Assembly (NCBI GenBank): GCA_012932865.1
Contig: SAXG01000024.1
Span: 310,001 to 374,000, forward strand
Direction of reading: 5' to 3'
Source of the DNA: Amylostereum areolatum
Taxonomy: Eukaryota > Basidiomycota > Agaricomycetes > Russulales > Stereaceae
Length of the DNA: 64,000 nt
Under the pieces are notes generated by a model that did not search any database, had not been told where the DNA came from, and saw only the letters and a program-made list of their open reading frames with translations. Positions 23,899 to 44,133 of the stretch are shown here, piece by piece. Both the position numbers and the translations under genes were made by a program. How positions within the stretch are numbered: the first letter of the stretch is position 1; each line of letters starts with the position of its first letter.

Positions 23899-24033
23899 GA
23901 AGTCCATTTAAGCCCGGTTCTCACGCATTCGAAATGCGCGTCGGAAGTACAAATATCAGAAAGTTGTTGTAACTAAGTCTACAAATCTGATATGATCGAT
24001 TTGTAATGTCCATTAGCTCGAAGTGAAGTCAAT
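23899..24033. repeat. Outer inverted repeat, left copy (IR-1)
   Basis: 135 bp nearly identical (about 5 mismatches) to the reverse complement of 56820-56954. The right copy has four more terminal bases (GGCA); here they are replaced by the B LTR end. It contains a small palindrome (ACGCATTCGAAATGCGCGT). Confidence 0.85.
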
Positions 24034-24574
24034 CAAAACGTGTTGTGTGGAATGTGTATTCGACGGGAAAAAACACATTAGACACGTGAGGTTTTGGACT
24101 GCTTATGACCGGCTTGAAATGACTTATTTGTGATAGGACTTATCACGGAGCAAATTGAACTGATACTTCTCGTTTTGGTAGGAATCAAATGCAACATTTT
24201 GAGCCTGTGTTCTCTGAGATAAAACACATTAGAAATCTGTTCCTCAGGAACTAATGAACGGCTAGATTGAGGACTTGTGCACTTAAGGGTTGATACAGGC
24301 AAGGGCTCACCATATTCCCACACAGGTGCACAGGGCTTGAGTCCAGCCATTCATGAGTTCTTGAGGAACAGATTTCTAATGTGTTTTATCTCAGAGAACA
24401 CAGGCTCAAAATGTTGCATTTGATTCCTACCAAAACGAGAAGTATCAGTTCAATTTGCTCCGTGATAAGTCCTATCACAAATAAGTCATTTCAAGCCGGT
24501 CATAAGCAGTCCAAAACCTCACGTGTCTAATGTGTTTTTTCCCGTCGAATACACATTCCACACGACACATTTTG
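24034..24574. mobile_element. 540-bp fold-back element inside IR-1 region
   Basis: Two inverted arms of about 220-250 bp centred near 24304 (GTGTATTCGACGGG at 24054 pairs with CCCGTCGAATACAC at 24541). The middle of about 50-100 bp is also partly paired. No ORF. It interrupts the sequence that continues past IR-1 on the right side (GTCAATTCCTGGTCCC), so it looks like an insertion. Confidence 0.75.
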
Positions 24575-24841
24575 AAAACAGGGCCCTGCGGGCATACCTG
24601 GTCCCGGTCGGTGCAAACACATACTGCATGTCATATGCAAAGCATGCAAGTTAGAATGTCATACGGAAAGTATGATTTGGCCACTACATATATAGTGGCA
24701 AGGGTCTCAGTCCAACAAAAATCCGAGATCACAATTTTGCAATGAGAGCCGCAACCGAGAAAACCTTTAGGGCAGGCCAAGCGCGCAAGAAAAACCCAAC
24801 CAACCACGGACAGGATCACGTGACAATTTCAAACACCATTT
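24575..24841. other. Spacer between IR-1 and IR-2
   Basis: No gene. Short CCTGGTCCC (about 24598) and a CACGTGA-type motif near 24818 have rough counterparts between the right-hand copies (56693-56819). Confidence 0.4.
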
Positions 24842-25983: not shown

Positions 25984-27726
25984 TGAACATCGCACAGGCC
26001 AATCGTATCACATCAAAGTTCGTCAACAGGTACTCCGGAAGCGGCTCCTCATTGGCGGCCAAAAAGCGGAAGCTTCATGACATCCAGGAAGAGCGGGCGG
26101 CACTATAAATATGGAGAAAGGATCGGGAACACGGTGCGTGGTACAATGGTGACTACTGAACGGAACACTACTGACGACAACAGCAGCCCTGTGTGTGGCG
26201 ATTCAGGGACAACTTGCCGATGCAGGCTTTGAAGCAGGATCCATGCCAGACCTCGATGATCTCGCAGGGTTTGCGGATCACATCCCCCTCGCGCAAGACC
26301 AAGATATGGAATGGGACGATGAAGTTGACGAGGAGGACAACACCCCGGGCCTCACATTCAAGGATATTGCGTGGCATAAGGCTCGCCTTCGTGCAATCAT
26401 AAGGTGCGTAGCTATCTACCCGTGCACGTACATGCCACTTATCTCTGTTCCTCCCAAGTTTATACGGAGGTCGCATAAAGTCCCAGGACCAATGCAAGTG
26501 GTCTGATCGAAGGGCAGTCACGAATGCTGAGTGGGAGGCAATACTTCCCACCCTTGTCAACCCATACCTCCGTTGGCGATACGGGGCCAGAGCAGGGACT
26601 CCGTCGTCGGATGACCGCGACACTTGTGAATCGCATTTTTTCGATGTGCGCGTCTACGGCCTCTCTGGTGAGTATGCACCGCTAATTTCCTTGGCACCTT
26701 GCTGATCAACGTAGTTTTCTCACCTACGAAGCAGTCCGTCGAGCAGCAACCGGGCGAAAGCCCAAGCGTGGCCTTAGTTCGACGAGGGTACCTGGGAGCC
26801 ACCCCTAACCGGCCGTCCACCGCGTTTTCGTTGGAACTGCTGGAATTCTACCATCAGCTCCAATGACGGAACCCCTCCCTTGGCATTCAGCCCTTTGCGC
26901 GCATGATATGCGCCATACAACTAGTGAGTACTCCACGCTGTGTACACCCTCGAATGGCTGCGTTTATAAATACCAGGTTCCTTATGCAGCAGCTCTTCAA
27001 GAACAGCTCTCGGCTGCGTTTGACGCATACCTCAACCTTACACGTCGGCTCGACAAGCTTGCGGCGGATGAGCTGGGCTGGGACGGCCCCGACTAGCACC
27101 TGTTGGCCAGCTGCCTGTGTTGTGGGTTCAAGGTGGGGCCTACACACATTGATCACATTACAAAAGCACTGACTAGAATTATGCAGCAGCCAAACGAGGA
27201 TGTCCTCGTTCCGGCCCGTCTCCATGCGATGGACGGCTGCAGCTCTCACAAGCGGCAACACGACGCTGGCCACGCCGATGCTCGAGTATTTGACAGCTCC
27301 TACTTCTTCACCCCCAACAGGTTGATGTGTTCAAGGACGAAGTCAAGCGTCGACGCCCTGCGAAGGACCCCGAAGCAGGCATGCTCCTACCTAGCAAGAC
27401 AGTCAAATGTACCGAAAATTGGAAGGCAGCGAACACAACAGAGATGCACGAAGGCGTCGCCGAGGTCTTCGAGCAGACCGGTGTCTTTGTTTGCGCGTGT
27501 CGGCATGGCATTGTTGAGTTCGTGGAGGAAATCATCTAGAGCGGCGAACTGTATGTACCCCTCCCACTTTCCAATGCACTGACTGACCTATGCATTTCAG
27601 TGCGAAGTATCCGCTGTGCATCGTCGATACCATACTCCGGGTGTTTGGCGACGATCAAGGCCTTGGCTACGACATCGGGTGCTCCATGGACGCCACCGTC
27701 GAGCACAGCTCTCTCAATGCGCGCGT
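25984..27726 (+). pseudogene. KDZ transposase KDZ1, N-terminal part (split gene)
   Basis: A KDZ-type (Kyakuja-Dileera-Zisupton) DNA transposase in several exons. Recognisable pieces: a basic N-terminus from ATG 25984; acidic QDMEWDDEVDEED (about 26310); NAEWEAILPTLVNPYLRWRYG (about 26530); the CxC-type metal motif CLCCGFKVG (27112-27138); HAMDGCSSHKR with a catalytic-type Asp (about 27225); CACRHGIVE (27497); and GYDIGCSMDATVEHSSLNARV (27665-27726). Stops at 26864 (TGA), 27094 (TAG) and 27537 (TAG, Gln in KDZ2) kill it. It ends exactly at a MITE. The rest of the gene is at 36063-36593 on the other strand. Confidence 0.82.
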
Positions 27727-27921
27727 CAGAGCATGACACGAGTTGATCCACGGATATCCGCGGGTTTTTTTGACAGGTACCTGTGGTCTCAGAATCAATA
27801 CCTCAATCCTTACAGGTATCAGGCACACAGGTACCTGTATCCGCGGGTTGGATACCTGCGGGTGTGCCTGAAGGGTACCCAAACAGGTACCCACAGGTAT
27901 AGCAACTCGTGTCATGCTCTG
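27727..27921. mobile_element. hAT-type MITE, 195 bp, with swapped target duplications
   Basis: Terminal inverted repeats CAGAGCATGACACGAGTTG / complement, with CAG...CTG ends and 8-bp flanks typical of hAT elements. The left flank is GCGCGCGT (27719-27726); the right flank is GCCCACAG (27922-27929). They differ from each other but match the flanks of the second copy (36594-37122). The core is rich in the palindrome CAGGTACCTGT. No ORF. Confidence 0.9.
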
Positions 27922-30900
27922 GCCCACAGTAATGGTCAACTTGGCGAAAGCGGAGAAGGTCAAAATGACTACGGCGGACATTATGCACCAACATTTTGGA
28001 CACGTCTCTCATGGTACACTCACAAAGTTAACATCAGACGTTGTCAAAGGAGTGCACATTGACCCAGCATCTCGTCCCTCTGATCACTGCCATGGTTGTC
28101 AGATGGGAAAGTCAACACATCAAATGTTCCCGGTTTCAGAGGAACGCGCTACGCGGGTGTTGGGAAAGATTCATTCTGACCTAGGGGGACCCATGCGTAT
28201 AAAATCGATCCAAGGAAATACCTATATGGCTACGTTCCTCGACGATAGTTCGTCTTTCGGTGCTATCTACTATCTGAAGGCTAAAAGCGAGTTCGTGAAA
28301 GTGTTCGAGCACTTCAGAGTGTGGGCCGAAAATCAGACGGGCGAAAAGATAGGAATCTTCCACTCCGATCATGGAGGGGAGTTCACTAGTCGGGAACTCG
28401 AGGATTGGTTCAAAGAACTGGGAATAGAACATCACATGTCTGTGCCGTACACGCCACAACTCAATGGACGAGCGGAACGATTCAATCGTACAATCCTTGA
28501 AAAGGCAATGGCTATGCTTCACCACGCTGGCCTTAGCTTAGGATTCTGGCAGTATGCAGTCGAAGCTGCTGTCCACATCTACAATTGTACACCGACTCGG
28601 ATCAACAGTGGCACACTCCGCTTGAGCGCTGGACAAAGGGAAAGGATATTCCCAATGGCACGTACCTTAGGGTATTTGGTTGCGCTGCTAAGGCATTCAT
28701 AGTCAAGGACAAACGTCACAAGCTACAAGGAAAGACATTCCCTGCGACATTCATTGGCTATGAACCCGGTGCCAGTGGGTATCAGTTGTGGGTAAAGGAA
28801 AAGAGAACCATGGTCATTGCTGCCTATGGCGAGGTAGACTTTGACGAAACCTCTTTCCCGGCAAAACCAAGTTTGCCAGCTCTGGTTCAGCCCCCACCTG
28901 TTGTGCGTCTGGAAGATTTAGTTCCAGATGTCGAAATTCCTGAGAAGCATCGTCACGCTCGACCATCGGCACCTACTCAAGCTGATCCTGGTCCTGCAGC
29001 AGACGAAGAAAAGAAAGACAGCGGTGAGGAAGAAGTTGAAACCCCACCATCCAAGCATGAAGAGGAAGAGGTCAAGGAGATGGAGTCTGTCATCTCTGAC
29101 CTCACCACCCTTTCTCCATCCCCTTCACCACCACAAACTCCACTGCATACTCCTGCAGTGGGAGTTACACCGCTCCCACAAACTCCTCAAACTAGTCGGT
29201 ACCACGATGCTCTAGCAAACCCCCCACATGCAGACTACTCCCCACCTTCGCATGAGCCTGTCACGCCTGAACAAAGGCCGCGACGGAATCGTGCAGGTTT
29301 GAGCCCGCGCTACAATAATCCAGACAATGCGCATGGTACAGGGAGGTCTAGCCAGGTCGATGCAACTATGGGCAGACGAGGAGGTTGTCGTCATGTAATG
29401 GGAGGAATGCCTTTGCTTTTGGCTTTGCTAGATACAGCAGCATTGCCTGACCCACAGTCTTTTGGGGAAGCAATAGCATCGCATGAAGCGGCGCAGTGGA
29501 GGGAAGCGTGTCAATATGAGAAAAATGCGCTAGACAAAATGGGAACCTGGAGATTGGTGGACAGACCCAAGGATGCGAACATTATCACTTGCAAATGGGT
29601 CTTCAAGCGTAAATCAGACATGCTATTTTGTGCTCGCATGGTCGCTAGAGGCTTCAAACAGGAGTATGGCAAGGATTATACGGAAACCTTCAGCCCTGTT
29701 GCCTGGTTCGAAACAATTCATTTCTGCCTTGTGTTGGCTGCACAAGAAGATTGGGAAATACATGGCATGTACATCAAGTCAGTGTTCCTGCATGGGCAAC
29801 TGGAGGAAGAAATCTACATGGAGCAACCGGAAGGTTTCGTAGATCCTACACATCTGGAGAAAGTTGTCTTACTACTGAAGGCCATCTATGGTCTTAAACA
29901 AGCTGCTAGGCAGTGGAACACAGTAATTGACGCACTCCTAAAGGAGTTGGGCTTTGTCCGTACTTATTCGGACACAGGATTATACGTCTATCGTCGACAG
30001 GAGGGGAACACAGTCATCATTTTGATACTGTATGTCGACGACATGGCGTTAATGGGGAACTCGCTTAGCGAAATCAAGTGCATCAAAAGTGCCATCGCTA
30101 GTCGGTTTAAGATGATGGACCTAGGGGAATTGTCTTCTTTCCTTGGGATTTGAATCATTCGCGACAGAAAGCAGAAGACAATTGAGATAGATCAAAAGCG
30201 GAACATAGCAGAAATGCTTGCCCGTTTCGAGATGTCTGAAGCGAACCCCACTCGCACTCCCCTGCCATCCGGTATTGTCCTTGAAAAGGCAACCAAAGAT
30301 GCAGACCCGCACACTAGGACGTACTACCAGTCTCTCATTGGCAGTCTCATGTACATCACCATTGGTTCTCGTCCAGACATTGCGTATGCGGTCACACGGC
30401 TGGCACAGTTCAGCTCAAACCCCACTTTGGCCCATCTGAAAGCGGTGAAGTACGTTCTGCGGTACATTGTTGGTACACAGGACTATCGCATTCGCTACAA
30501 TGGCAAAGTGAAGGACAAGCTATTTGGTTTCTCTGATGCGGATTGGGCGGAGAATAGGGATAATCATCACTCGACATCTGCATATGTCTTCATCTACTCC
30601 GGCGGTGCCATCGCCTGGATGTCAAAGAAGCAGAGTACGTCGCAATGGCAGAAGCGGCAAAACAGATGGCTTTGTACAGGAACCTCTATCAAGAGATCGG
30701 CTACCCGAGTCAAGTGCCTTTTACCTTGTATGGTGACAACCGGGGCACACTTATTAGTGCACAAAACCCTGTCACTGGTAAAAGTCTAAAGCACATTGAT
30801 ATTCATTGGCATTACATTCGGGAATGTGTCGATGATGGAGTGGTTTCCTTGGTTCATGCCCCTTCAGCGGATATAGTGGCAGATGCTCTGACCAAGCCTG

Positions 30901-30968
30901 TCCCTTATGACACACACATTCATTTGAGTGGGAGGATGGGTTTAGTGGAAGCAAAGGACAGTCGCTAG
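27922..30968 (+). pseudogene. pol: Ty1/Copia Pol (integrase, RT, RNase H)
   Basis: The integrase zinc finger MHQHFGHVSH...CHGCQMGK starts near 27981. The core has D (HSDLGG), D (HSDHGGEF) and E (NGRAERFNRTI). A one-base deletion near 28600-28640 shifts the frame. A Pro/Glu-rich linker follows (28920-29330), then RT with CKWVFKRK, VARGFKQEYG and catalytic YVDDM (30030). TGA at 30151-30153 replaces Arg of LGIRIIRD. RNase H FSDADWAENRDNHHST follows; about 31 bases are missing near 30635 (KKQ...EYVAMAEA). It ends with HIDIHWHYIRE and TAG 30966. The N-terminal gag-protease half of this element is at 37123-38485 on the opposite strand. Confidence 0.9.
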
Positions 30969-30994
30969 CTTTCGATCATCCCATTAAGTGGGAG

Positions 30995-31351
30995 TGTTGA
31001 AGATAGTAATGCGGACGATCTCTAGCTTCAACTACATTATGTAATATGTGATGGAAAGGAACGGAAGGTTCTGGGAAGAACCGTAACAATATGGAATCGG
31101 CTGTGCGAGGCTGTGCGGAGCACGTGATTCTTACTATACGCTTTCACATGAAAGCTGTGGTGGATGACTGAGCGCACTCTTGGCGCTGATTAATTATGCT
31201 ACACTATGGCACCACTTTCTTACAGCTTTTATGATTGGCTCTTATGGCACAGCGGTTTGGGTATATAAGGCTCTCGTATTTTGTCCTGCCTCCTCACTCG
31301 AAGTATCCCTTCGACTGAGTGTCTCACTGACTTGGATAAGTCTGTTCAACA
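30995..31351 (+). repeat. 3' LTR of the Copia element
   Basis: 357 bp from TGTTGAAGATAG to TCTGTTCAACA. Preceded by the purine tract AAGTGGGAG. TATA box GTATATAAGG at 31261-31270. The other LTR is 39236-39707 in opposite orientation. It is followed by CCAAC, which does not match the flank of the other LTR. Confidence 0.92.
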
Positions 31352-31656
31352 CCAACACCTCGACCCGCCCTGCAAAGCTGACAGACGACGAGCGTGCAAA
31401 GATGATGCGTGAGGGCAAGTGCTTCATGTGTCGACAGGCCGGTCATGTCTCCCGCGACTGCCCCAACCGCGACTCGAGTGCACGATGGGTAGGCGCAGTG
31501 GAGACTGGATCTAAGGCTCCACCCACCGCGAAAGCAGCTCCCGACCTGTCCAAAACCATTGTGGCGATCACTCGCCAGCTGAATGATCTGGACGCAGAAG
31601 GCAAGGTGCAGGCAGTAGCACTGTTGAAGGACATCCTGGAATCACAGGATTTTTGA
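31352..31656 (+). pseudogene. gag: C-terminal Gag of C with zinc knuckle
   Basis: Reads STRPAKLTDDERAKMM, then CFMCRQAGHVSRDC (about 31421-31462), a Gly/Thr linker and an end LLKDILESQDF. Ends GATTTTTGA at 31648-31656. B Gag has the same order (LTDAEREHLRKEGGC...). All of gag upstream is missing. Confidence 0.85.
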
Positions 31657-34600
31657 AACACCCCCCAGTCGCGTCATCTGGTGGAGGCAAAGGACTTTTG
31701 GTATCATCGTCGAATCGTTTTGCTGTATTATCATCTATGTATACCTGTGAGCAATCGTATCCCTCGTGTTTGTATCTGTCTACCGTCACCAAGAACAGGC
31801 AAACACTATTGATCACGCTCAAGGTCAAGCTGATTGGATGAGTTACCAAAAGAGAAATCGACGCAGACGCGCTGCTTGATAGCGGCGCAGAAGGAATTAT
31901 CCTGAATCGAAGCTTTGTTGAATGCAAGAAGCTTACCACAAGAAGACTAGAAAACCCGTTCCCCGTGCGTAATGTGGACGGCACCGAGAACATCATGGGC
32001 TGGGTACGCGATACAACGACCCAGCGGATCCGGATATACTCGCAAGATTCAAAGGCATAACATGAGGAAGAAGCTGAGTTCTTCATCACCGACATTGGCG
32101 ATCATGACATGATCCTTGGAACAGACTGGCTCGACGAGCACAATCCCACCATAGACTGGCAACAAGACCGTGTTGACATGCTCCGCTGCCCTCCCTCATG
32201 CACTCTGTCCAAACCTCCTGTGACAAACCTCGCAACCAAGCCACAGAAACCATCATCGGTCCAATCACAGCGTAAGGTTGAAGTAGGTAAAACCCCAAGG
32301 ACACCTCTCATTCTGGACGATCCCTTCCCAGAGCCGACATATGTCTCCTGGACCCCAGTCCCCACTTATGTCATTCCTGCGTGCAGAGTCAAAGGTGTTC
32401 GTGTTTGCACAGTCCATCGCTCCCCTCTACCTGCGCGACTCTTCACTGAAGATGATGACGAGTGGCCCACAGTATTCCGAGACTGGGAGATCAATGGACT
32501 ACGCCGCGCTGGAATCCTCCCTGAAACCAACGGTCTTAATCCAGAAGCAGTACCCATCCGCATGGGCTTCACAAAAGTGCAGGAGCTTGCAGAGCATTCG
32601 AAGGAGAACACACACCCGCAAACCTTTGAAGACCTAGTGCCCCCTCTGTACTGCAACTTCTCACCTGTATTTGACAAGAAGACCTCCAAGCGACTTCCTG
32701 ACCGACGACCATGGGATCATGCTATTGACATAAAAGATGGCTTTGAACTCAAACCGTGCAAAATCTACCCCCTCTCACCTTCCGAGCAGATCAAACTCGA
32801 CACCTTCCTCGACGACCACCTGAAGAAGGGCTATATCCGCCCATTGAAGTCGCCTCAGGCGAGTCCGTTCTTCTTTGTGAAGAAAAAGGATGGAAAGCTA
32901 TGTCCCGTACAGGACTATCGAGAATTAAACAAGGGCACTGTCAAGAATGAATACCCCTTGCCACTGATCTCTGAAATTGTCGACCGTCTCAAAGGTGCAA
33001 AGATCTTCTCAAAGATGGATGTTTGCTGGGGCTACAACAATGTCTGCATCAAGGAAGGCGACGAGTGGAAGGCTGCGTTCAAGACGAATCGCGGTCTCTT
33101 TGAACCTACGGTGATGTTTTTCGGACTTATGAACTCCCCTGCACATTTCAGGCAATGATGAACGAACTGTTCAAGGATCTCATCGACTCGGGCAAGGTCA
33201 TTATCTACATGAACGACATCTTGGTGTTCACTCGCACCATGGACGAACACCGTGCCATAGTGCAGCAGGTTCTGCAACGTTTGCAAGACAACGACCTCTT
33301 CCTCAAACCAGAGAAATGTGTCTTTGAGCAAGACTCCATTGAATACCTCGGACTCATCATCTCGCACGACAAGATCGCTATGGACCCCATCAAGGTAGCA
33401 GGTATTCAGGACTGGCTGACACCACAAATGGTCAAAGATATGCAATCCTTCCTCGGCTTTGGCAACTTCTACCGACATTTCATCAAGGACTTCTCCAAGG
33501 TTGCACGACCCCTATTTGACCCGACAAAGAAGGACTGCACATGGGACTGGTCGACGGACTGCCAAACTGTGTTTGACGCACTGAAAGCTGTGTTTACTTC
33601 CTCCCCCGTCTTGGTCATGCCTGACCCAAAGAAGCCTTACCTCGTTGAAGTCGACGCCTCGGACTTTGCTACTGGAGGTATACTCTCGCAGAAAGGCGAC
33701 AACGGTCACTGGCATCCAGTGGCGTATCTGTCCAAGGCCCTATCGGAACCGGAACGGAACTACGACATCTACGACAAGGAGCTACTTGCGATCATCCGTG
33801 CGCTCGAAGCCTGGCGCCACTACCTTGAAGGCGCCCCGGACACTGTCGAAATCTGGACAGATCACAAGAACCTGGAGCACTTCAAGACGGCACAGAAGCT
33901 GAGCCGTCAACAGGCACGTTGGGCTCTGTTCCTCACTCGATTTGACTTTTCGCTCATTCACAAACCAGGAGTATCCCATCGCCCAGACCCAATGTCTCGA
34001 CGACCTGATCACAAGCACGGCGTTGAAAATGACAACAAGGAGCACATCTTGCTCGACCCCAAGTACTTCCAGATACGTGCAACAAGGCCAGGAGCAGTAA
34101 CCTCCCTCGGCGACGTCGAACTCCGACGACGTATCCGCAACTGCAAAACCAAGGACATCGAGGTCGTTCAAGCCCAGGACACCATCTTACGAAACGGACC
34201 ATGTACGCTTGTCAAGAACCTCCAGGAATGGAACTACGAAGAAGGCCTAGTCCTGTTCAGGGGAAAGGTATATGTCCCTGCAGACGATGAGTTGCTACGC
34301 GACATTGTCAAAATGTACCATGAATCGCCCCTGGCTGGACACCCTGGTCGCTTCAAGACTTATGAACTTGTGAGTCGTGAATATTGGTGGCCTGGCATGT
34401 CTGTCTTTGTCCGCGACTTCGTAGCAGGATGCGCAACCTGCCAGTCGACGAAGACACAGAGCAGCCGACCCCACGTCGACATGATCCCGAACGAAGTACC
34501 CGATCGACCATTTGGCGTCATCTCTACCGACTTCATTGTCGAGCTCCCTGACTGCGAAGGCTATAATGCCGTCAATGTCGTGGTTGATCGCCTCACCAAG

Positions 34601-35782
34601 ATGGTGGTTACCACCCCATGCACGACAAAGATCACCAGCGACAGCACGGCCGACATTCTCTTCGATAAGGTATACCGACACTACGGCTTAGCGGACAAGA
34701 TCATCTTGGATCGTGGACCCCAATTTGCTGGACAGGTGATGCGTACACTCAATGAGAAGCTCGGGATCAAGTCTGCCCTCAGCACAGCGTATCACCCACA
34801 GACAGACGGCCAAACCGAACGCGAGAACCAGAACCTTGAGCAGTTCCTGCGAGTATTCTGCAACTACCGTCAGGATGACTGGGTGAAGTGGTTGCCCTTC
34901 TTCGAGTTTTCTCACAACTCCCGCACCCATGCAGCTACTGGAAAGGCTCCCTTTGAAGTCCTCTACGGCTTCCTCCCCAAAATGTACCCATCCGTAAACC
35001 CGTCCTCAAAAGTCCCTGCAGTTGAAGAACGCCTCCGTCGACTTGAAGAAGTCCGACAGGAGATCAAGGCCAGCCTTGCCCTTGCATCTGACTTAATGAA
35101 ACACTACAATGGTGACACAATCAGCAAATCGACACTGTTCGCCGTCGGAGACAAGGTCTGGCTCGAAGGCAAAAATCTGAAGATGATGAGGCCGAAAGCT
35201 AAGCTTGCTGCCAAACGATTTGGACCCTTCGAGATTGTTGACGTCATTAGCCCAGTGAACTACCGCCTGAAGCTGCCGAAGACGTGGAGAATCCACCCAG
35301 TCTTCCATGCTTCGCTGCTCACCGCGTACAAGGAGACAACGGCACATGGTCCAAACTATGAACAACCGCCACCTGACCTTGTTGATGATGAAGAAGAATA
35401 TGACGTGCCGACCTGCAACAAGAAAGGCATACAATACCTCGTCAAATGGGCAGGCTATCCTGACTCCGAGAATACCTGGCTCCCTCGCTCCTCGCTCTCA
35501 AAGGTCACCGACATGATCGATGCCTTCCACAAACGCCATCCAAACGCACCCCGCCCTGTGTGTTCCCTCGGCATCTCCTTTGACAATTTTCTCGCATCTA
35601 CCCTTGCAGATGACATCGCGCTCCAGGCGAAAGCGCGTCTTAAAGGGGGGGTAATGTCACGGATCGCTCCATTTCTCTCTTTGTTTGCAGACCTCATACA
35701 CGCGACACGTCACAGCACATCACATGCTTCAACGACGTCATTGCCTGGACTTCCGAGCGGGGTTCCGCATCCTTATCTATGA
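31653..35782 (+). pseudogene. pol: C Pol (PR-RT-RNase H-IN-chromodomain), inactive
   Basis: -1 frame after gag. Stops at 31839 (TGA, LIGRVT in relatives) and 32058 (TAA). Protease DSGAEG lies near 31880. A one-base deletion near 33147 (NSPA-TFQA) shifts the frame. RT reads YMND at 33206-33217 instead of YMDD, so the catalytic Asp is lost (GAC to AAC). From 33155 the frame is open for 875 codons: RNase H VEVDASDFATGG, HHCC finger (HPGRFKTYELVSREYWWP...CATCQ), integrase D (STDFI), D (LDRGPQF), E (GQTER), and a chromodomain-like end with YLVKWAGYPDSENTW. The frame has no stop before the 3' LTR and ends inside it. Confidence 0.9.
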
Positions 35783-36062
35783 CATCATTGCTCCGGACCT
35801 TCGTCCTCCGCCCCATGACTCCTTTCTTATTGTTCTCCCCGCTCGCACCACTATCGCATCGCATCGCACCATCGTCCCCACTTGTATATAAGGACAGTGT
35901 TTCTCTTCCCTTTTCCCTAGACTGTCCATCTCGTCATACAGTACTGTAGCGCACATTGCACTACCCTAGACCCCGGCACTCTCAAATCTATTGCTTCTTC
36001 TCGCTCCTCCCATCGTCGCGACTTAGGCGGTTCCATCGGTCTCATAAACTGCGTTTCTGACA
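35655..36062 (+). repeat. 3' LTR of C
   Basis: 408 bp, TGTCACGGATCGCTCC to TTTCTGACA; polypurine tract AAAGGGGGGGTAA just before. TATATAAGG at about 35885-35893. Closely related to the D and F LTRs. Confidence 0.93.
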
Positions 36063-36593
36063 CCCACGTACTTTTTGTCATCCAGTTTTTTCAGCCCTTC
36101 TACATATGCAATGTGGAGCGTATCTTCTTCTGGCTCTGACTGGAGGTGCTGCAGGTATTGCCGTTTCTCGAGAATCCATGCATCGAAGTCGTGTTCGGAA
36201 TACCCGGACGTCTTCGTGAAAGCCGTCATGTCGACGGCGTACTCTGCAAGCGCGGCGATGGCCTGTTTGTAGTTGTTGTAGACAAAGTTGCCTGTCGACG
36301 AGGTCAGTAGACGACGCGTAGACAGAGGCGGGCTTACTGAGCTCTCCGTACCGATCTTGATCCCATTGTCGGAGGTGAAGGTCTATGAACTGTTTCCAAT
36401 GGAACCGAGACGCATGTCGAATGGGCCTTGCAACTCGGTTGAGGCTGGAGAAAATCCGTTCACACGTTTCTAGATCTTCGCGGACGACGCCTTTGCGAGT
36501 GAGTGGGTGGTAGTGGAGCTGGCATAGGTGGTTGTGGGCGTATCCATAGAAAGCATTGACCAGGAGCTGTAGCCGGTGTTCGATCACGCGCGC
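36063..36593 (-). pseudogene. KDZ transposase KDZ1, C-terminal part (inverted)
   Basis: On the minus strand from 36593 the reading starts ARVIEHRLQLLVNAFYGYAHN and continues LCQLHYHPL, HASRFHWKQFIDLHLRQWD and YGELSK. An intron follows (about 36289-36335), then NFVYNNYKQAIAALAEYAVD and LHIAYVEGLKKLDDKKYVG, where the C LTR cuts in. KDZ2 has the same blocks in the same order. It continues KDZ1 precisely: the N-terminal half ends ...LNARV at the other MITE. Confidence 0.85.
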
Positions 36594-37122
36594 CAGAGCA
36601 TGACACGAGTTGCTATACCTGTGGGTACCTGTTTGGGTACCCTTCAGGCACACCCGCAGGTATCCAACCCGCGGATACAGGTACCTGTGTGCCTGATACC
36701 TATAAGGATTGAGGTATTGATTCTGAGACAACAGGTAACCTGCAAAGGTACCTGTGAGAAACCTGTGGGCCTAAAATTGATGCCTGAGCCATCATTTTTG
36801 CTCTTTTAACGAGCTTCTACCCTCCTAAACTCTACAGAATGCATCTTCCACCACTTCTATGGTCTACTATACCCTTGATAACCTATCCAACTACCATATT
36901 TGTTACCTATATGACCATTTAAAGTGACCAAGGTGGACATGAGCTGTGATACCTGTGGGTACCTGTTTGGGTACCCTCCAGGCACACCCGCGGGTTTCCA
37001 ACCCGTGGGTACAGGTACCTGCGTGCCTGATACCTGTAAGGATTGAGGTATTGATTTTGAGACCACAGGTACCTGTCAAAAAAACCCGCGGATATCCGCG
37101 GATCAACTCGTGTCATGCTCTG
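36594..37122. mobile_element. hAT-type MITE, 529 bp, second copy with swapped flanks
   Basis: The same 19-bp terminal inverted repeats as 27727-27921. The left flank ACGCGCGC (36586-36593) is the complement of GCGCGCGT; the right flank CTGTGGGC (37123-37130) is the complement of GCCCACAG. It holds two direct copies of the CAGGTACC-rich core (36594-36775 and 36945-37122) around a unique 160-bp AT-rich middle. No ORF. Confidence 0.88.
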
Positions 37123-38485
37123 CTGTGGGCGCAGGGTGTAACGTGATCCAGTATACATTTTCCTGCTTTGTGATGTGCCCCACAGTAGTGTCTCCCTTTG
37201 AAATGGTGCGTCTGCCAGACCCACGGAGTTCGATGGTGAAACCCCGTTCCTCAAGCATGCCAACCAAAATGAACCGGTGCATAGCGAGAGGGGCATGGAG
37301 GACCTTGTTCAGGGTAACCTCCGTTTGTTTCCCTTCAACAACAGAGACCGCGCGCACCGTGCCAATGCCTATATAGGTCATCTGGCCGCCATTTCCGAGT
37401 GTTATTGGACGTGAGTCCTTTAACGGTGTGTACGACTCAAAATTGCCTCGGTGCGGGGTTACATGTTGTGAACAGCCAGAATCCAACATCCAACGGGTGT
37501 GCCCAGGGGCGATATACCAGGAAACCTTCATGTCATTGGCATCTGAAGACGAAGACGCCTGCAAGGTATTTACAGTAGGTCCCCCGCCACCACCCCCTCC
37601 ACCTTTCTTCTTCGCCTCTTCCTCATCCTTCTTGCGCTTGTGACATTCAGCCCTTTTGTGGCCAGGCTTGTCGCAGTAGTAACATTTGAGGTCCTTGTTG
37701 TTTTTCTTCTGCGCAGATGACGACGATGAGGATCCCCCTCCCTTTCCTTTTCCTCCTGCCTTGGAGGACGCGAGGGTAGCGACTTTACCCTTGCGACGAG
37801 ACTCCTCCTCGATGATGCGAATGAAGATGTCTTCAGAATTCGCCTTGGTGATGTCAGGGAAGGAGTTGAGGATGACAGGAACTAACTCCTGGAAGGAGTC
37901 AGGGAGAGCCTTGAGGACGATGAAGGCGTGGAACATGTCAGATAGTCCGAGACCATTATCGCCTAGGACATTGTACTCCTCCGTCATCTTGTCGATTTGA
38001 GGACGAAGGGGCTCCGACTCGGAGAGGCGATGTTGTTGGTAGAGATCGAAGCTGGTGAATGCGGTCATGATGCCAGGTTTGGAGTAGATCCCCTCCAGGA
38101 CCTCCCAGGCGCCATAGGACAATGTGCAGTACTCTATCTTGCTGCGCACAGCAGTGACGCAAGCAAGCTTGAGAAGACCAAAGGCTGCATCATCATCGTC
38201 TTCCCAGTCTCCTCTGACTTCATTGTAGTCTTTGCCAGAGAGAGTGGAGAGTTCCAACTTGGGCGCCGATGTAATTTGGATGGTAAGTTCATCCATGGCT
38301 TCCGCATCCTTCTTCTTCTTCTCAAAGCCAGTGATCTTTGTGCTCGTCGAGGGACGAGGCTTCTGGCCATTGACGACACGCCACAGTTTCCTGCTCTGTA
38401 GCAGGTCCTGCATGTTGCGCGACCAAGATTTCCAGTTCGTTGCATCAAGTTTGACGAAGCTGGAAGGGAGCGAGTTTGAAGACAT
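37123..38485 (-). CDS. gag: Copia Gag and protease (separated from its Pol)
   Basis: From ATG 38485 (MSSNSLPSSFVKLDATNWKS) the open frame reads a UBN2-type Gag (W..W...M..LL, LKALPDSFQELV) and a lysine/serine-rich stretch. Next come the knuckle CYYCDKPGHKRAEC (about 37645-37690), a poly-Gly tract, and the protease site WMLDSGCSQHV (about 37465). It ends at the MITE (LHPAPT). Downstream integrase sequence is at 27922. The open frame is intact, so Gag could still be made, with MITE-encoded residues at its end. Confidence 0.88.
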
Positions 38486-39223
38486 GATAAGTCTTGGTGG
38501 CGATAATCTGGGTTGAGAAGCAGTCAGACCCAGATCCCCAAAGTCGCAAAGAGGCAGCAACCCTCCCCTGTGTCTGTACTCTAAACCAGAAACCCAAAGG
38601 TTCCTGCTCTGCCTCGACGTCCATGCGCGCCTATAGTACTTGTATGAACAGATATAGTATGTGATGCGCAGTTGTAACAGGTGCTCCAGGGTGGATTGAC
38701 TACCTCCCTCTGGATTAGGACACCTAAACCGGTCCGCACTTAAGGGCACCAGCCAACCGTTCACAAGCACCTATAGCGTCACGCTAGGCTCCCCTAGCGC
38801 TTGCCTAATTACCTAAGTATAGTAATTATGGACTGGCTTAGCGACAACACGAGCGTCGCCAGAGGCCCTTCCTGCCAGCTTCCTCAAGTGAGGTCACTTG
38901 GTTTCAGGGTGCTACGACACTGCACGTCCTAAGACGTCTTCAGGGGGGGTGGGAACGAAATGCCCGCACGCAACCTGGGTAAGTAAAAGACCATGCCCCT
39001 AATGGGCCAAACTGTATCGTAGCGTGCAGAGGGACGGAGGACAAGAGGACTCGCAACGGCTTCTGCCCGCTTCAGGGCTCCCTCGCCGTGCTCGCGTTAC
39101 CCCTTCAGGGTGAGGACACAATGCAAGGCCCGGGGCCAAGCAAATTGGGGAGTGAGTGGGACAAATGAATGTTATTCGCCTTTGAAGAACTTTGTACGAC
39201 TTGAGGGCTAGATAGATAGGCCA
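38486..39223 (-). other. Copia 5' leader
   Basis: About 740 bp between primer site and gag ATG. No supported coding sequence; contains repeated CTTCAGG/CCTAGCG motifs. Probably holds the packaging signal. Confidence 0.5.
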
Positions 39224-39235: not shown

Positions 39236-39707
39236 TGTTGAACAGACTTATCCAAGTCAGTGAGACGCTCAGTCGAAGGGATACTTCGAGTTATATATTA
39301 TACCTTATCCAAGTCAGTGAGACGCTATAGTAAGGTATGTAAGTCAAAGAGAAATAGGTAGAAAGTATAAAGGATTGCTCACCTCAGTCGAAGGGATACT
39401 TCGAGTGAGGAGGCAGGACGGAATACGAGAGCCTTATATACCCAAACCGCTGTGCCATAAGAGCCAATCATAAAAGCTGTAAGAAAGTGGTGCCATAGTG
39501 TAGCATAATTAATCAGCGCCAAGAGTGCGCTCAGTCATCCACCACAGCTTTCATGTGAAAGCGTACAGTAAGAATCACGTGCTCCGCACAGCCTCGCACA
39601 GCCAATTCCATATTGTTCCGGTTCTTCCCAGAACCTTCCGTTCCTTTCCATCACATATTACATAATGTAGTTGAAGCTAGATATAGTCCGCATTACTATC
39701 TTCAACA
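39236..39707 (-). repeat. 5' LTR of the Copia element
   Basis: 472 bp; on the plus strand TGTTGAACAGAC to ATCTTCAACA. It matches 30995-31351 but carries about 115 extra bp near 39270-39390, with a partial duplication of the CAGTCGAAGGGATACTTCGAG and TTATCCAAGTCAGTGAGACG segments. TATA at 39431-39440. Its right edge lies inside an exon of the HMG-like gene. Confidence 0.9.
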
Positions 39708-40727
39708 GATGTCGTCTAGAATGGCCCGGCTCAGCAAAATGAACCGGCGGCTGCAAAGGAGAACTTACTGAAAGAGTCCTGTATGATTAGGCGGCAGAAC
39801 TTGACGTCCTCGTTTATGGATTTTTTGCCTCGAGAACCAGAGTCTGAGAGTCGACATCAAGGTCAGTCGGTCGTCGACAGTAGCAGAAGGTAACGCACCA
39901 TCGTCTATGCCGGAGCAGACGTATGCCTCGAACGACATGGCCATCTGGCTGGGGGTCGTGTTGTATACAAGGCGGAGCCAGCCCTTAACCCTCTCCGACA
40001 TGATGAGAGCAGGGGCCTGGTGGTGAAACAGGTTCGACTTGACCGTGATGCAGATGGCCTCGCACTGGTCGCGAAGCGTTGCGGTGCCGATCTACCGAGA
40101 GCGTCAGAGAGGGGGAAAGGCGGCAAGGACACCGATGAGAGACGTACGTCACGTTCGATGGCATTGAAGGTCGAAACAAAGTCCCTTTGAATGGCCTTAG
40201 GGTTGGAGCGCATCCCCACAACGCGCTCGCGGCGACGGGCGATGGCCTCCGCAACGAGAACATCCTTCGCCTCTTTGGTGAGGGCGTTGTAAGCTGCCGT
40301 GAGTCCCAGGCCGTCCTCGGCTAGGAGCTTGGGGACGGTGAGCTTTTTGCCCACTCGAAGGTCTGACAACCAAATGGGTGAGAGTCGAGACACAGCAGAT
40401 GAAACCGAGAAGGGTACTCACTTTTGTTTTTCTTTCTGAGCGCATCCGTTATGAACGCCGTCCACGGGGTTATCGTGTGCTCCTTCATCACGTGCCTGGT
40501 ACCCTGATGGGCCATGCCCATGACCGCACCTACGGAGCTAGAGGGTCGAGGTAAGAAAAAAGATGCAACATACAAAAGGCCAAAACATACCGCCCATGGT
40601 CCTTCGCAATAGCCTTGGCTCCTTCAGCGAACGTAGAAGAGAGTTCGGCCATAGCAGAGCCATAGCTGGTTGCGCACGCGCGGCGACAGATTTGCTGCTC
40701 ATGGGTGAGGGCTTGGCTGCGGGGCAT
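39708..40727 (-). pseudogene. HMG-box-like gene, 3' end cut by Copia
   Basis: Spliced gene from ATG 40727 (MPRSQALTHEQQICRRACAT). After an intron at about 40560-40613 it reads HTITPWTAFITDALRKKNK; after another, VPKLLAEDGLGLTAAYNALTKEAKDVLVAEAI, which has the look of an HMG-box-like helical domain. It continues CEAICITVKSNLFHHQAPA, SQMAMSFEAYVCSG, INEDVKFCRLIIQDSF and FILLSRAILDDI. There the Copia LTR begins, so the rest is lost. Genes of this kind sit beside TET/JBP and KDZ genes in mushrooms (from memory). Role inferred: chromatin-binding accessory protein. Confidence 0.5.
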
Positions 40728-40968
40728 GGAGGAAGGGTCGGCTGCTGGACGTTTGGTGACAAATACACGGGGCGGGCTGAGGTGCAATTGCTGGGGTGGG
40801 CCATTATATAAATTCTTGGGCAAATAGGTGGGATTGGTCAGCGGCTCGTTGGGCCTTGTTTGACAGGAAATTCAAAAAGAAAAGAAAGTTTTAACGTGTG
40901 GTGCAGCCGCGCCACTGTGACGGTAAGTACAGGATCTGAGACACGGCACGGCACAAGCCCTGCTAGCC

Positions 40969-42760
40969 CTACGCGCCTGAATGATGAACATGGCGCTCAG
41001 CCTCCCACCAAACCAGCTCCTCACGGTCGCGACGGAGATCCTTGAACTTAGAGAACCGAGAGAGCTGGGCTGCCCACTGGGATCCCGAACATACGTCATA
41101 CTCGGCCTTCTCTTTGGCAGACAGTGAGCTGGATGGTCAAAAGCCGTGGCCGGCCCATCGCATGATTCCCCCTGCACAGTATTGCGTGAGGGAGAACCGT
41201 TTCTCACCAGGCCGTATGTCCGTGTTTGCATGGCCGCACCCAGCAGATGGCAAGCCAATGGACAATGCGGCTGGGAACCGAATGCGAAGCATCAAGTCCC
41301 AGAGGACCAGGTCGCCGCCATAGTCAGCATCAAAGTCTCCTAAGGCTGTCACGACGCACGGAATGCCAGGGAAGTTTGCGCAGTCATTGTGCAGGAAGAA
41401 AACCGTGTCGGGCCCTAGGTTGAAAGTGCAGGCCGGGTAGTCGCTGTTGCAGAAGTTTTTTTTGAGAGACGGAATGTGCTTGTACAGTTCTTCGAGGGCG
41501 TTGACCATGTGCTTGTGAACCTTCGGAAAGTAGGACGATAGCCCAGCTAAATAAGCATGAGCGAGCATCGACCACAGGTCAAGACGGAAGGCGTGCACCT
41601 GAGCCAAAGTCGGCCACCCGCTGCGCATCCTTATCATTGAGGAGCTCGTCTGCGAGCTTGGCCTTGACGCCTTTGACACTGAGAGGGCACGGAGCCTGGA
41701 AGTTACCGTAGTAAGCACCAGTCGAGTGAACGTCGTCTACAACTCACCTTCTGGCCGCCGCCGTAGGACGTCCCGACCGAGATGGTACCGAAATCCCCCC
41801 GTCATCCCCCCTTCAGCACGTGTTCGATGCGACGGCGCCCGTCGTCAAGCTTGGAGGCGAGGCGGGCCATGGCCGTCGTATATTGATCCTTGAAGGGGAC
41901 CGTCTCGTCCTCGTGCAGGCGGCCAAGGAGGACAATGATGATACGGTCCTCATCGTCGAGGATGACGTACGAGGTGCTGAGAGGGCATGAGCGACGAGGG
42001 AGAGGGGGGGTGAAGGACGACTTACACGCCGTCCCAGGCAAAGTACTGAAACCCCATCGTGTCCAGCTCCCGCCCCGTCCAACGCCGCTTCGTGAGGTCT
42101 GTGAGAGGCCGCGCGACGTATGCGCCCTTTGTGATGCGATACCTGACCGCGTCGAAGCCCAACGCGCGGATCGCCTGCGTGGCAGTGTTCCGCTCTGACA
42201 GGTTTGCGCGGTACTTCACCCGGGGGGGAAGAAACCCGGCCGACTCCTGCTGCCGTTGCCGCCTACATCTGCACGCTGAGCCTGCCTGGCTGCTTGCCTT
42301 CTGCGCGGTGTCTCGCTTCCGCTGGGTCGACAGCTTCTTGCTTTGCCTGACGGGCCTGGGCGCGGTGTGAGGGGCGGAGCGGTGTGGCGTAGGCAGGGCG
42401 CGGTGGGCGGGGGTAAGGCCTCTCGAACATGCCGCAACATCGTCGGAGGGCCGGGGGCTGCAGCTGTCGTCTGAGACATCGTATTCGTCGCCCTCCGGCG
42501 CGGAGGCGGCGAGGGATTCGCTGGAAGAGGCCGGCAAGAGCGTGAGAGGCGAGACGGACCCGACGGAGTTGACCTCGTCCAGGTCGTGGCCTTGAAGCTC
42601 CGCCTCCTCTCGCAGACCGGCGACGCGACCCTCCCTGGCCACGGCCTTGCGAAGGAGCGCCCCGAACCTTAAGTTCGTCTTGAAGGGCAGCGCGCACGCG
42701 ATCGCGGCGTAGACGCAACCGGATCGTGTGAGGCGGTGCGTTGAGTCCTGCAGGGGAGAG
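40969..42760 (-). pseudogene. TET/JBP-like 2-oxoglutarate/Fe(II) dioxygenase, two nonsense codons
   Basis: A family that oxidises 5-methylcytosine in DNA. The N-terminal part (42640-42300) is low-complexity and basic. Then RRWTGRELDTMGFQYFAWDG leads, across introns, to FGTISVGTSYGGGQK and to the double-stranded beta-helix. There LGPDTVFFLHNDCANFPG holds the HxD iron ligands (about 41400), followed by ALGDFDADYGGDLVLWDL and CGHANTDIRPGEKRFSLTQY with the distal His and the Arg for 2-oxoglutarate (about 41200). The C-terminus is FSKFKDLRRDREELV, TAG at 40969. TGA codons at 41802 and 41137 interrupt it; both could be CGA to TGA. The 5' exons upstream of 42760 are unclear. Confidence 0.75.
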
Positions 42761-43639
42761 CGTCAGTATGGCGGTGGTGGATCAGCGAGACAATCTGAGA
42801 GGAGGGCGAGAGGTGCGAGAGGGATGGCGGGAGATGCAGCCTGCGCGTGTTCCAGGGCCCGGCCACGTTGGGCGGCATGCGGCATGCGGCCGGCCGCATT
42901 CAACGACGCGCCGGGACGCGTCGCGTCAGACAAGGCGCGTCGGCGCGTCGCGTTCATCGACGCGGGGCATGTGCTAGTGCGTCGGACAACGCATGGGCTT
43001 CCTAGGCCCTCGCCCTCTACAGTGCCTATGCGAGACTCATCCGAGGACGAGGGCCAGTATTTCCCAAGCGCCGTTCGACACGCTCGCACAACCCACGGCG
43101 CGACTTGGCGGCGGGAAGAAACACAGAGACAAATAGGACGTGCTTACCAGCGTTGCATGGGGGCCTGGATGGCCTGGACGGGCCATGGGCGACGTGAAAA
43201 AATGTGCGTAGAGGCGTGCAAAGGGGCTGGGGAACGCGCGGGGCGGGCGAAGGAGAAAGTTCAATACTTATGGGTCCCTGTTTGACAGGGCTACAGCTTC
43301 ACACACTCGTTAACGGCAGCGGGGATCACACGTGGATCTCCAGTCGAATGCGCCGGGGGAGCGCCCGCATTCAATGAGAGACGGAGCCATTTTAGTTGTC
43401 TACAGGAAGGCATGCATACTCGGTGTAGAATATCGTACGACGGGATATGTACACAGCGGATATAAAATAAACAGCATACAGGACGTGTAGGCATGGCAGG
43501 TACAGTTGACGTGTTGGCGAGTTAGGGAGTCGGAGGAGGGACCTACTAGCGACGGCAGTCAGCGGCGCGGATCGTCTCGGTGAAGAATAGCAGCGAGGCA
43601 TACTAAGGAGGGGGAAGCACTGAACAGGCCAGGAAACCT
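42761..43639. other. Region upstream of the TET/JBP-like gene
   Basis: GC-rich, with open but low-complexity frames on both strands. Minus-strand KYWPSSSDESRIGTVEGEG (about 43010-43060) might be a 5' exon of the dioxygenase gene. No firm gene call. Confidence 0.35.
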
Positions 43640-44133
43640 AGCAGCACCGATCGGCCCTACTTGCTAGAGCTTGCGGAGCTGGCTGCATTTGCGGTTCGGG
43701 ACTTGGGGATCGTCGGGGCACACGGCGTACTTGACTGAGCCGCGATGACACCCCGCTTCCTGTACCAGCACAGTGAGGGCTAGGAGTAATGCCCACAACT
43801 TGACTTTACTCACCTTGAAGTACGCGGGCGGACCTCACGCTGTCGCACATCCTCCTGCTCCTGTCTCAGAGCCTTGCTGATCTTCCTCCGCCCCTTCCCT
43901 TTGGTAAAATGGTAGTCCGCCTGGACACGACGAACATGATCTATATTTCTAAGAGCCAGCCGTAAGCATCGCGCAAAATGTCGAGGGAATCAGCACGCAC
44001 CAAAAGTAATAGGCCTGGGAGTGCATTATCACACCAAGTGCCTCTCGTCTTGAGCGATGACCTCAGAATCAGACTCATCCTCTGAATTAGATGAGAATGA
44101 GATCGACTCTAGGTCTGGGTCGCAGGAGGCCAT
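43640..44133 (-). CDS. Small spliced gene of unknown function
   Basis: From ATG 44133: MASCDPDLESISFSSNSEDE, an acidic Ser-rich start. A probable exon follows near 43825-43920 (ADYHFTKGKGRRKISKALRQ..EDVRQREVRPRTSR), basic and helical, then a GTGAGT donor and a last exon to about 43660. Exon joints are tentative. It lies in the same orientation and row as KDZ2 and the dioxygenase gene. I do not recognise it. Confidence 0.35.

Follow-up and report, generated by a model that had tools for sequence, protein, structure and literature searches.

Within 64,000 nt of contig SAXG01000024.1 of Amylostereum areolatum (this whole stretch is the window, and all coordinates below are window positions), two miniature inverted-repeat transposable elements (MITEs) of the hAT type, MITE1 and MITE2, lie at the ends of a segment of 8.7 kb (27922-36593) which, with high confidence, we consider to be truly inverted relative to its flanks. 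This is supported by the exchange of 8-bp target-site duplications (TSDs) between the two MITEs, and by a KDZ transposase gene (KDZ1) and a Copia retrotransposon that both become collinear when the segment is flipped. On balance, we favour ectopic recombination between the two MITEs in inverted orientation as the cause, although the sequence alone is not decisive.

Read from left to right, the order at the breakpoints is GCGCGCGT-MITE1-GCCCACAG and ACGCGCGC-MITE2-CTGTGGGC (Table 1). The flanks of MITE2, once reverse-complemented, are exactly GCGCGCGT and GCCCACAG, that is, the duplications have been swapped between the MITEs, which lie in opposite orientation and carry the same 19-bp terminal inverted repeats. 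From the base composition of the window, the probability of both specific 8-mers recurring there by chance is about 3.6e-10. The genome searched comprised 57,130,172 bases in 182 contigs, a close but incomplete match to the 57,567,124 bases and 248 scaffolds in the published table for A. areolatum (PMC7227769); the best protein match to an open reading frame (ORF) of the window came from A. chailletii (93% identity, 70% query coverage). As a baseline, 13 complete copies of the MITE family outside the window were read, corresponding to about 10 independent sites, with three sites occurring twice on different contigs; the one-ended copies L051 and L053-L055 were kept out of this set. The 8-bp duplication was perfect in 10 of these copies, had one mismatch in 1 and two mismatches in 2. 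As the baseline copies mostly have matching duplications, flanks that match crosswise at two neighbouring MITEs are not background. Moreover, the KDZ and Copia comparisons revealed neither gain nor loss of bases at the two junctions. The 16 duplication bases, including those in CpG sites, all still match, and the event looks young, an age judged from these intact bases.

KDZ1 lies in two pieces, the left of which has an apparent small intron at about 27545-27601. Residues 1-67 of the 70 in the left piece align to positions 71-137 of Pfam KDZ (PF18758), and the right piece, from its residue 5 on, aligns to positions 144-217, so that the two pieces adjoin when the duplication is counted once. 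Sixty-four relatives were collected in a search with the read-through pieces, and both pieces were then aligned to them separately. Four relatives lacked one of the pieces. Among the 60 with both halves, the junction offset was 0 in 47 and +1 or +2 in 8; the remaining 5 had offsets of -8 to -25, which are read as alignment slippage.

The Copia element was tested against other copies in its own genome, where the pieces 27922-28960 and 37123-38160 were searched one by one. The first piece gave 38 matches outside the window, 30 of which reach the junction (the 8 that do not were excluded from the count). In 25 of these 30 the second piece was found on the opposite strand with an overlap of exactly 8 bp, which corresponds to the empty target site; the remaining five consist of one partnerless copy on contig C34 and four matches that begin 15-17 bases inside the piece and have other offsets. 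Direct reading of the 18 loci outside the window with a Copia half revealed both halves in 16 (14 distinct copies), with the 8-bp overlap in 16/16 and a site that is exactly CTGTGGGC in 14 and carries a point difference in two. This multicopy Copia supplies many copies of the empty site. The long terminal repeats (LTRs) of the element in the window, mutually inverted at present, become direct repeats once the segment is flipped.

A preliminary description of this DNA had claimed that the flanks of the MITEs are exact complements, swapped, and that flipping 27922-36593 gives a matching duplication at both; the flank sequences bear this out to the base. The collinearity of KDZ1 and of Copia across the flipped junctions, which it had also claimed, agrees with the Pfam positions and relatives in the first case and with the other genomic copies in the second. 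Its statement that the flip rejoins two genes holds for collinearity but not for the restoration of working genes: KDZ1 is degenerate, and when flipped it would retain a MITE, an in-frame stop before SGEL and the Gypsy LTR in its 3' part. Likewise, an inversion "caught in the act" is rhetorical wording, as the inversion is present but only a completed event is visible. No functional effect of the inversion is evident, because the MITE insertions would already have broken both host genes.

Table 1. Breakpoints, interrupted genes and host elements at the inverted locus (window positions)
Feature	Position	Strand	Remarks
KDZ transposase 5' piece	27465..27726	+	Pfam KDZ positions 71-137
TSD1 copy GCGCGCGT	27719..27726	+	KDZ side, left of MITE1; sequence read
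MITE1, 195-bp short form (L head + R tail), ends CAGAGCATGACACGAGTTG	27727..27921	+	
Inverted segment, 8,672 bp	27922..36593	.	Exchanged flanks; collinearity of KDZ and Copia
TSD2 copy GCCCACAG	27922..27929	+	Copia side, right of MITE1; sequence read
Copia integrase and reverse transcriptase part (rve, RVT_2)	27922..30789	+	Now faces away from gag part
Copia 3' LTR, 357-bp type	30995..31351	+	
Gypsy, 5'-truncated, chromodomain integrase and 3' LTR	31352..36063	+	Host site of Copia 3' end
KDZ transposase 3' piece, bounded by Gypsy LTR	36066..36593	-	Pfam KDZ positions 144-217
TSD1 reverse complement ACGCGCGC	36586..36593	+	Left of MITE2; sequence read
MITE2, 529-bp standard form (L unit, spacer, R unit)	36594..37122	-	
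TSD2 reverse complement CTGTGGGC	37123..37130	+	Right of MITE2; sequence read
Copia gag and protease part (Retrotran_gag_2, Pol_BBD)	37123..38770	-	
Copia 5' LTR, 472-bp type	39236..39707	-	
Repeat X	39708..43850	-	Host site of Copia 5' end; uninterrupted at C110, C1

The family to which both elements belong is short and multicopy, with an 8-bp duplication and short terminal inverted repeats, as is characteristic of hAT-type MITEs. Its hAT label rests on that duplication and on the terminal ends, whose CAGAG fits the hAT consensus. In the standard form of 514-529 bp, the L and R units are direct repeats, 88-90% alike, separated by a spacer. Among the other copies, 10 of 11 measure 514-529 bp, and the eleventh, L052 on C165, is a diverged short form of 175 bp with altered ends. 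MITE1 consists of an L head (approximately 1-62) fused to an R tail (approximately 79-195) and is 334 bp shorter than MITE2, the product expected of a deletion between the internal L and R repeats; it was the sole short form with exact ends returned by a pattern search of the assembly. The family ends matched 31 times genome-wide, compared to 0 for a reversed-pattern control. Two relatives of 3.07 kb have ends identical to these and the same 8-bp duplication (C2:508917-511984, L041 218-3285; C41:45499-48563, L042 200-3264), and in the C2 copy no transposase-like gene was evident among the ORFs of at least 80 aa, which were judged by eye with no family search. The hAT dimerisation domain (Dimer_Tnp_hAT) has 58 matches in the genome, none closer than about 73 kb to any of the 31 end matches, and no hAT transposase element with the family ends was found. 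Another pair of family members lies 7 kb apart on C2. Equal duplications were also found on one large and one small contig for L041/L042 (C2, C41) and for L048/L049 (C117, C32), so that some second-haplotype or duplicated contigs seem to be still present in the assembly.

Under ectopic recombination, the starting point would be one MITE inside the KDZ transposase gene, flanked on either side by GCGCGCGT, and a second MITE in Copia, 8.7 kb away and in opposite orientation, flanked on either side by GCCCACAG. A crossover between them, in the common 110-bp identical stretch or elsewhere in the approximately 187 bp that are 94% identical, would flip the intervening DNA and swap one flank of each MITE. 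The longest stretch of exact identity between the MITEs, with two flank bases counted in, covers 110 bp (27814-27923 with 36701-36592). Homologous copies in opposed orientation at both breakpoints, exchanged duplications and junctions without gain or loss were all found, as expected of such a crossover. In addition, the unequal lengths of the MITEs fit two different pre-existing elements, which favours recombination. Template switching inside the MITEs would give the same product and is inseparable from recombination here.

Several observations weigh against this mechanism, or at least do not help it. First, the MITEs offer too few variable sites to show chimerism: apart from one 334-bp repeat-unit deletion, the two differ at 2 of 179 bases. 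Second, in a comparison of 12 sequences (66 pairs; L052 with its large deletion, the two 3-kb relatives and the truncated L051 and L053-L055 were left out), MITE1 and MITE2 were the closest pair, 2/179 against a median of 11, which suggests a single origin and hence would fit the insertion of a hybrid element too. By a rough hand estimate, about 0.04 pairs this close would be expected with about 16 insertions in 57 Mb; this would favour a local origin, but the pair on C2 shows that the family clusters. Third, as the only exact-ended short form in the assembly, MITE1 may have shortened in place after the event. Finally, a search of the assembly with both KDZ pieces found no uninverted or MITE-free KDZ allele, the window being the only strong match and the second-best matches being 101 bp at 75% and 254 bp at 70%. 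As heterozygous contigs were removed from the published assembly, an uninverted allele may have been hidden.

The preliminary description had reasoned that no single insertion gives this arrangement, and thus that two intact insertions were followed by ectopic recombination. The inversion itself stands, but that history is not a necessary one, because insertion of a hybrid element starting from one MITE, in KDZ or in Copia, yields the same swapped flanks through a single aberrant hAT transposition that makes both breakpoints. By this route, which we regard as possible but less probable, the transposase would combine the left MITE end from one chromatid with the right end from its sister chromatid and insert both jointly at a second site, leaving the intervening segment inverted with a MITE at each end; a later deletion between the internal L and R repeats would then have shortened MITE1 by 334 bp. 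A toy derivation gave the same order as recombination, t1 L R t2' b' t1' R' L' t2, and in the sections of Delprat et al. 2009 (PMC2775673) that deal with the question the outcome of hybrid insertion is strikingly similar, with identical versus chimeric copies as the sole separator. The closeness of MITE1 and MITE2 and the 58 hAT domain matches are compatible with this route. Against it, the copies should be identical at birth, whereas they measure 195 and 529 bp and an extra deletion is required; one repeat-unit deletion plus 2 substitutions would account for the difference. Moreover, closeness is weak evidence, given that another copy, L044, lies 3/179 from each of MITE1, MITE2 and L047, and none of the 58 hAT matches falls within 70 kb of the 31 end matches, an absence of a matching element that is itself weak because of the contigs removed from the published assembly. 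If true, hybrid insertion would constitute a natural transposase-driven inversion in a fungus, passing for textbook ectopic recombination since the flanks look alike.

An assembly error, with the contig closed backwards across the inverted MITEs, is a very improbable explanation. The assembly was produced, according to the sections of the genome paper that describe it (PMC7227769), from 74x PacBio reads of fragments above 7 kb plus Illumina data; SSPACE was used for scaffolding and PBJelly for closing gaps, and heterozygous contigs were taken out. These steps speak for such an error, as does a run of 25 N in L070, outside the window, which is probably an assembly gap. On the other hand, the window is free of N and the exact identity between the MITEs does not exceed the 110 bp given above. 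As the reads are long enough to span each MITE with its flanks by a wide margin, misassembly is unlikely. Excision and religation usually leave footprints. The least probable readings of all are two excisions with the middle religated backwards, for which both junctions are too exact, and other ways of rejoining such as replication template switching or reversed-ends transposition; hAT alternative transposition does produce inversions in maize, but by the relevant part of PMC8225341 and our own working the reversed-ends route entails two separate insertions, drops the fragment that lay between them and creates a third, new duplication, whereas here only two duplications are found, exchanged, and KDZ and Copia have lost no bases. 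A composite transposon, in which 27727-37122 moved as a single block, was considered separately and rejected, as the outer flanks GCGCGCGT and CTGTGGGC are unlike and so are the inner ones.

Analysis of the Copia ends revealed a further feature of the locus. The 472-bp 5' LTR abuts repeat X at GACGACATC, a point through which X runs unbroken at C110 and C1 (a third copy, on C56, does not reach the insertion site), and the 357-bp 3' LTR abuts Gypsy gag at CCAACACC, where gag is unbroken in the five Gypsy copies read. Since two different empty sites exist, the element joins two unrelated host sites and looks like a probable recombinant of two insertions. The two LTRs differ by 8 substitutions (hand count of the alignment) and a 115-bp stretch, and both types are present in other Copia copies, the short in L077 and the long in L078. 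As a control for host duplications at other Copia copies, seven 3' stretches (L076, L078, L080, L082, L084, L086 and L088) were read, and the 3' end was found in 0/7. An earlier Copia-Copia recombination that deleted the DNA between them is the likely cause; in a search for its reciprocal product, the side of X that is missing here turned up nowhere but at the two intact copies of X, so that a deletion seems likeliest. The locus has thus probably undergone at least two ectopic exchanges, and the flip restores the interior of Copia but not its host duplication.

Some other features of the surroundings were recorded. On C56, a distance of 281 bp separates a related Gypsy (L068 2284-8781) from a copy of repeat X, close to the point at which the Copia of the window entered X; this is possibly an insertion hot spot. 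Within repeat X, the ORF at 41137-41718 (-) had no Pfam match. All 7 of its relatives are hypothetical or unnamed proteins, and Amylostereum and Artomyces account for four of these; the ORF may resemble the TET/JBP-like dioxygenases of fungi, which travel with KDZ transposons. A foldback-like inverted repeat pair of 250 bp, 96% complementary and with 43 bp between its arms, is located at 24033-24575. No RNA families or tRNAs were detected in the window (tRNA scan on the bacterial code setting).

Exchanged target duplications are strong evidence that an inversion was caused by a transposon, and few worked cases were found in print. The open-licence papers found dealt with Drosophila inversion breakpoints, a Drosophila foldback element and maize, and none with a fungus, but most subscription papers fall outside that search. 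By itself, this signature cannot tell recombination from hybrid transposition. Rearrangements of a fungal DNA transposon by non-standard transposition were reportedly described by Hua-Van et al. in 2002 for impala in Fusarium, which presumably belongs to a different transposon family from the present MITEs. In Drosophila buzzatii, the Galileo-mediated inversion 2z3 (also 2j and 2q7) likewise involves two opposed copies of one DNA transposon family with exchanged duplications; in the relevant part of that study chimerism of the copies was demonstrated and an uninverted chromosome was at hand, neither of which could be shown here, and the duplication is 7 bp versus 8 bp in this fungus, where the 8.7-kb segment lies within transposons (PMC2775673). 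In Atlantic cod, hAT-type MITEs with internal repeats are likewise found at inversion breakpoints ascribed to ectopic recombination, but as tandem arrays at large-scale inversions, and target-duplication exchange is not reported in the parts of that paper covered (PMC12368964). The maize Ac/fAc system shares the hAT superfamily, the 8-bp duplications and an inversion with an element at each end, but it starts, in the sections concerned, from two directly oriented elements, loses the intervening fragment and makes a new duplication (PMC8225341). The inversion described here is a clear case of a rearrangement type already known from flies, for which sequence alone does not decide between recombination and faulty transposition; while events of this kind are known, the new feature of this locus is that its Copia probably arose by recombination between two insertions.

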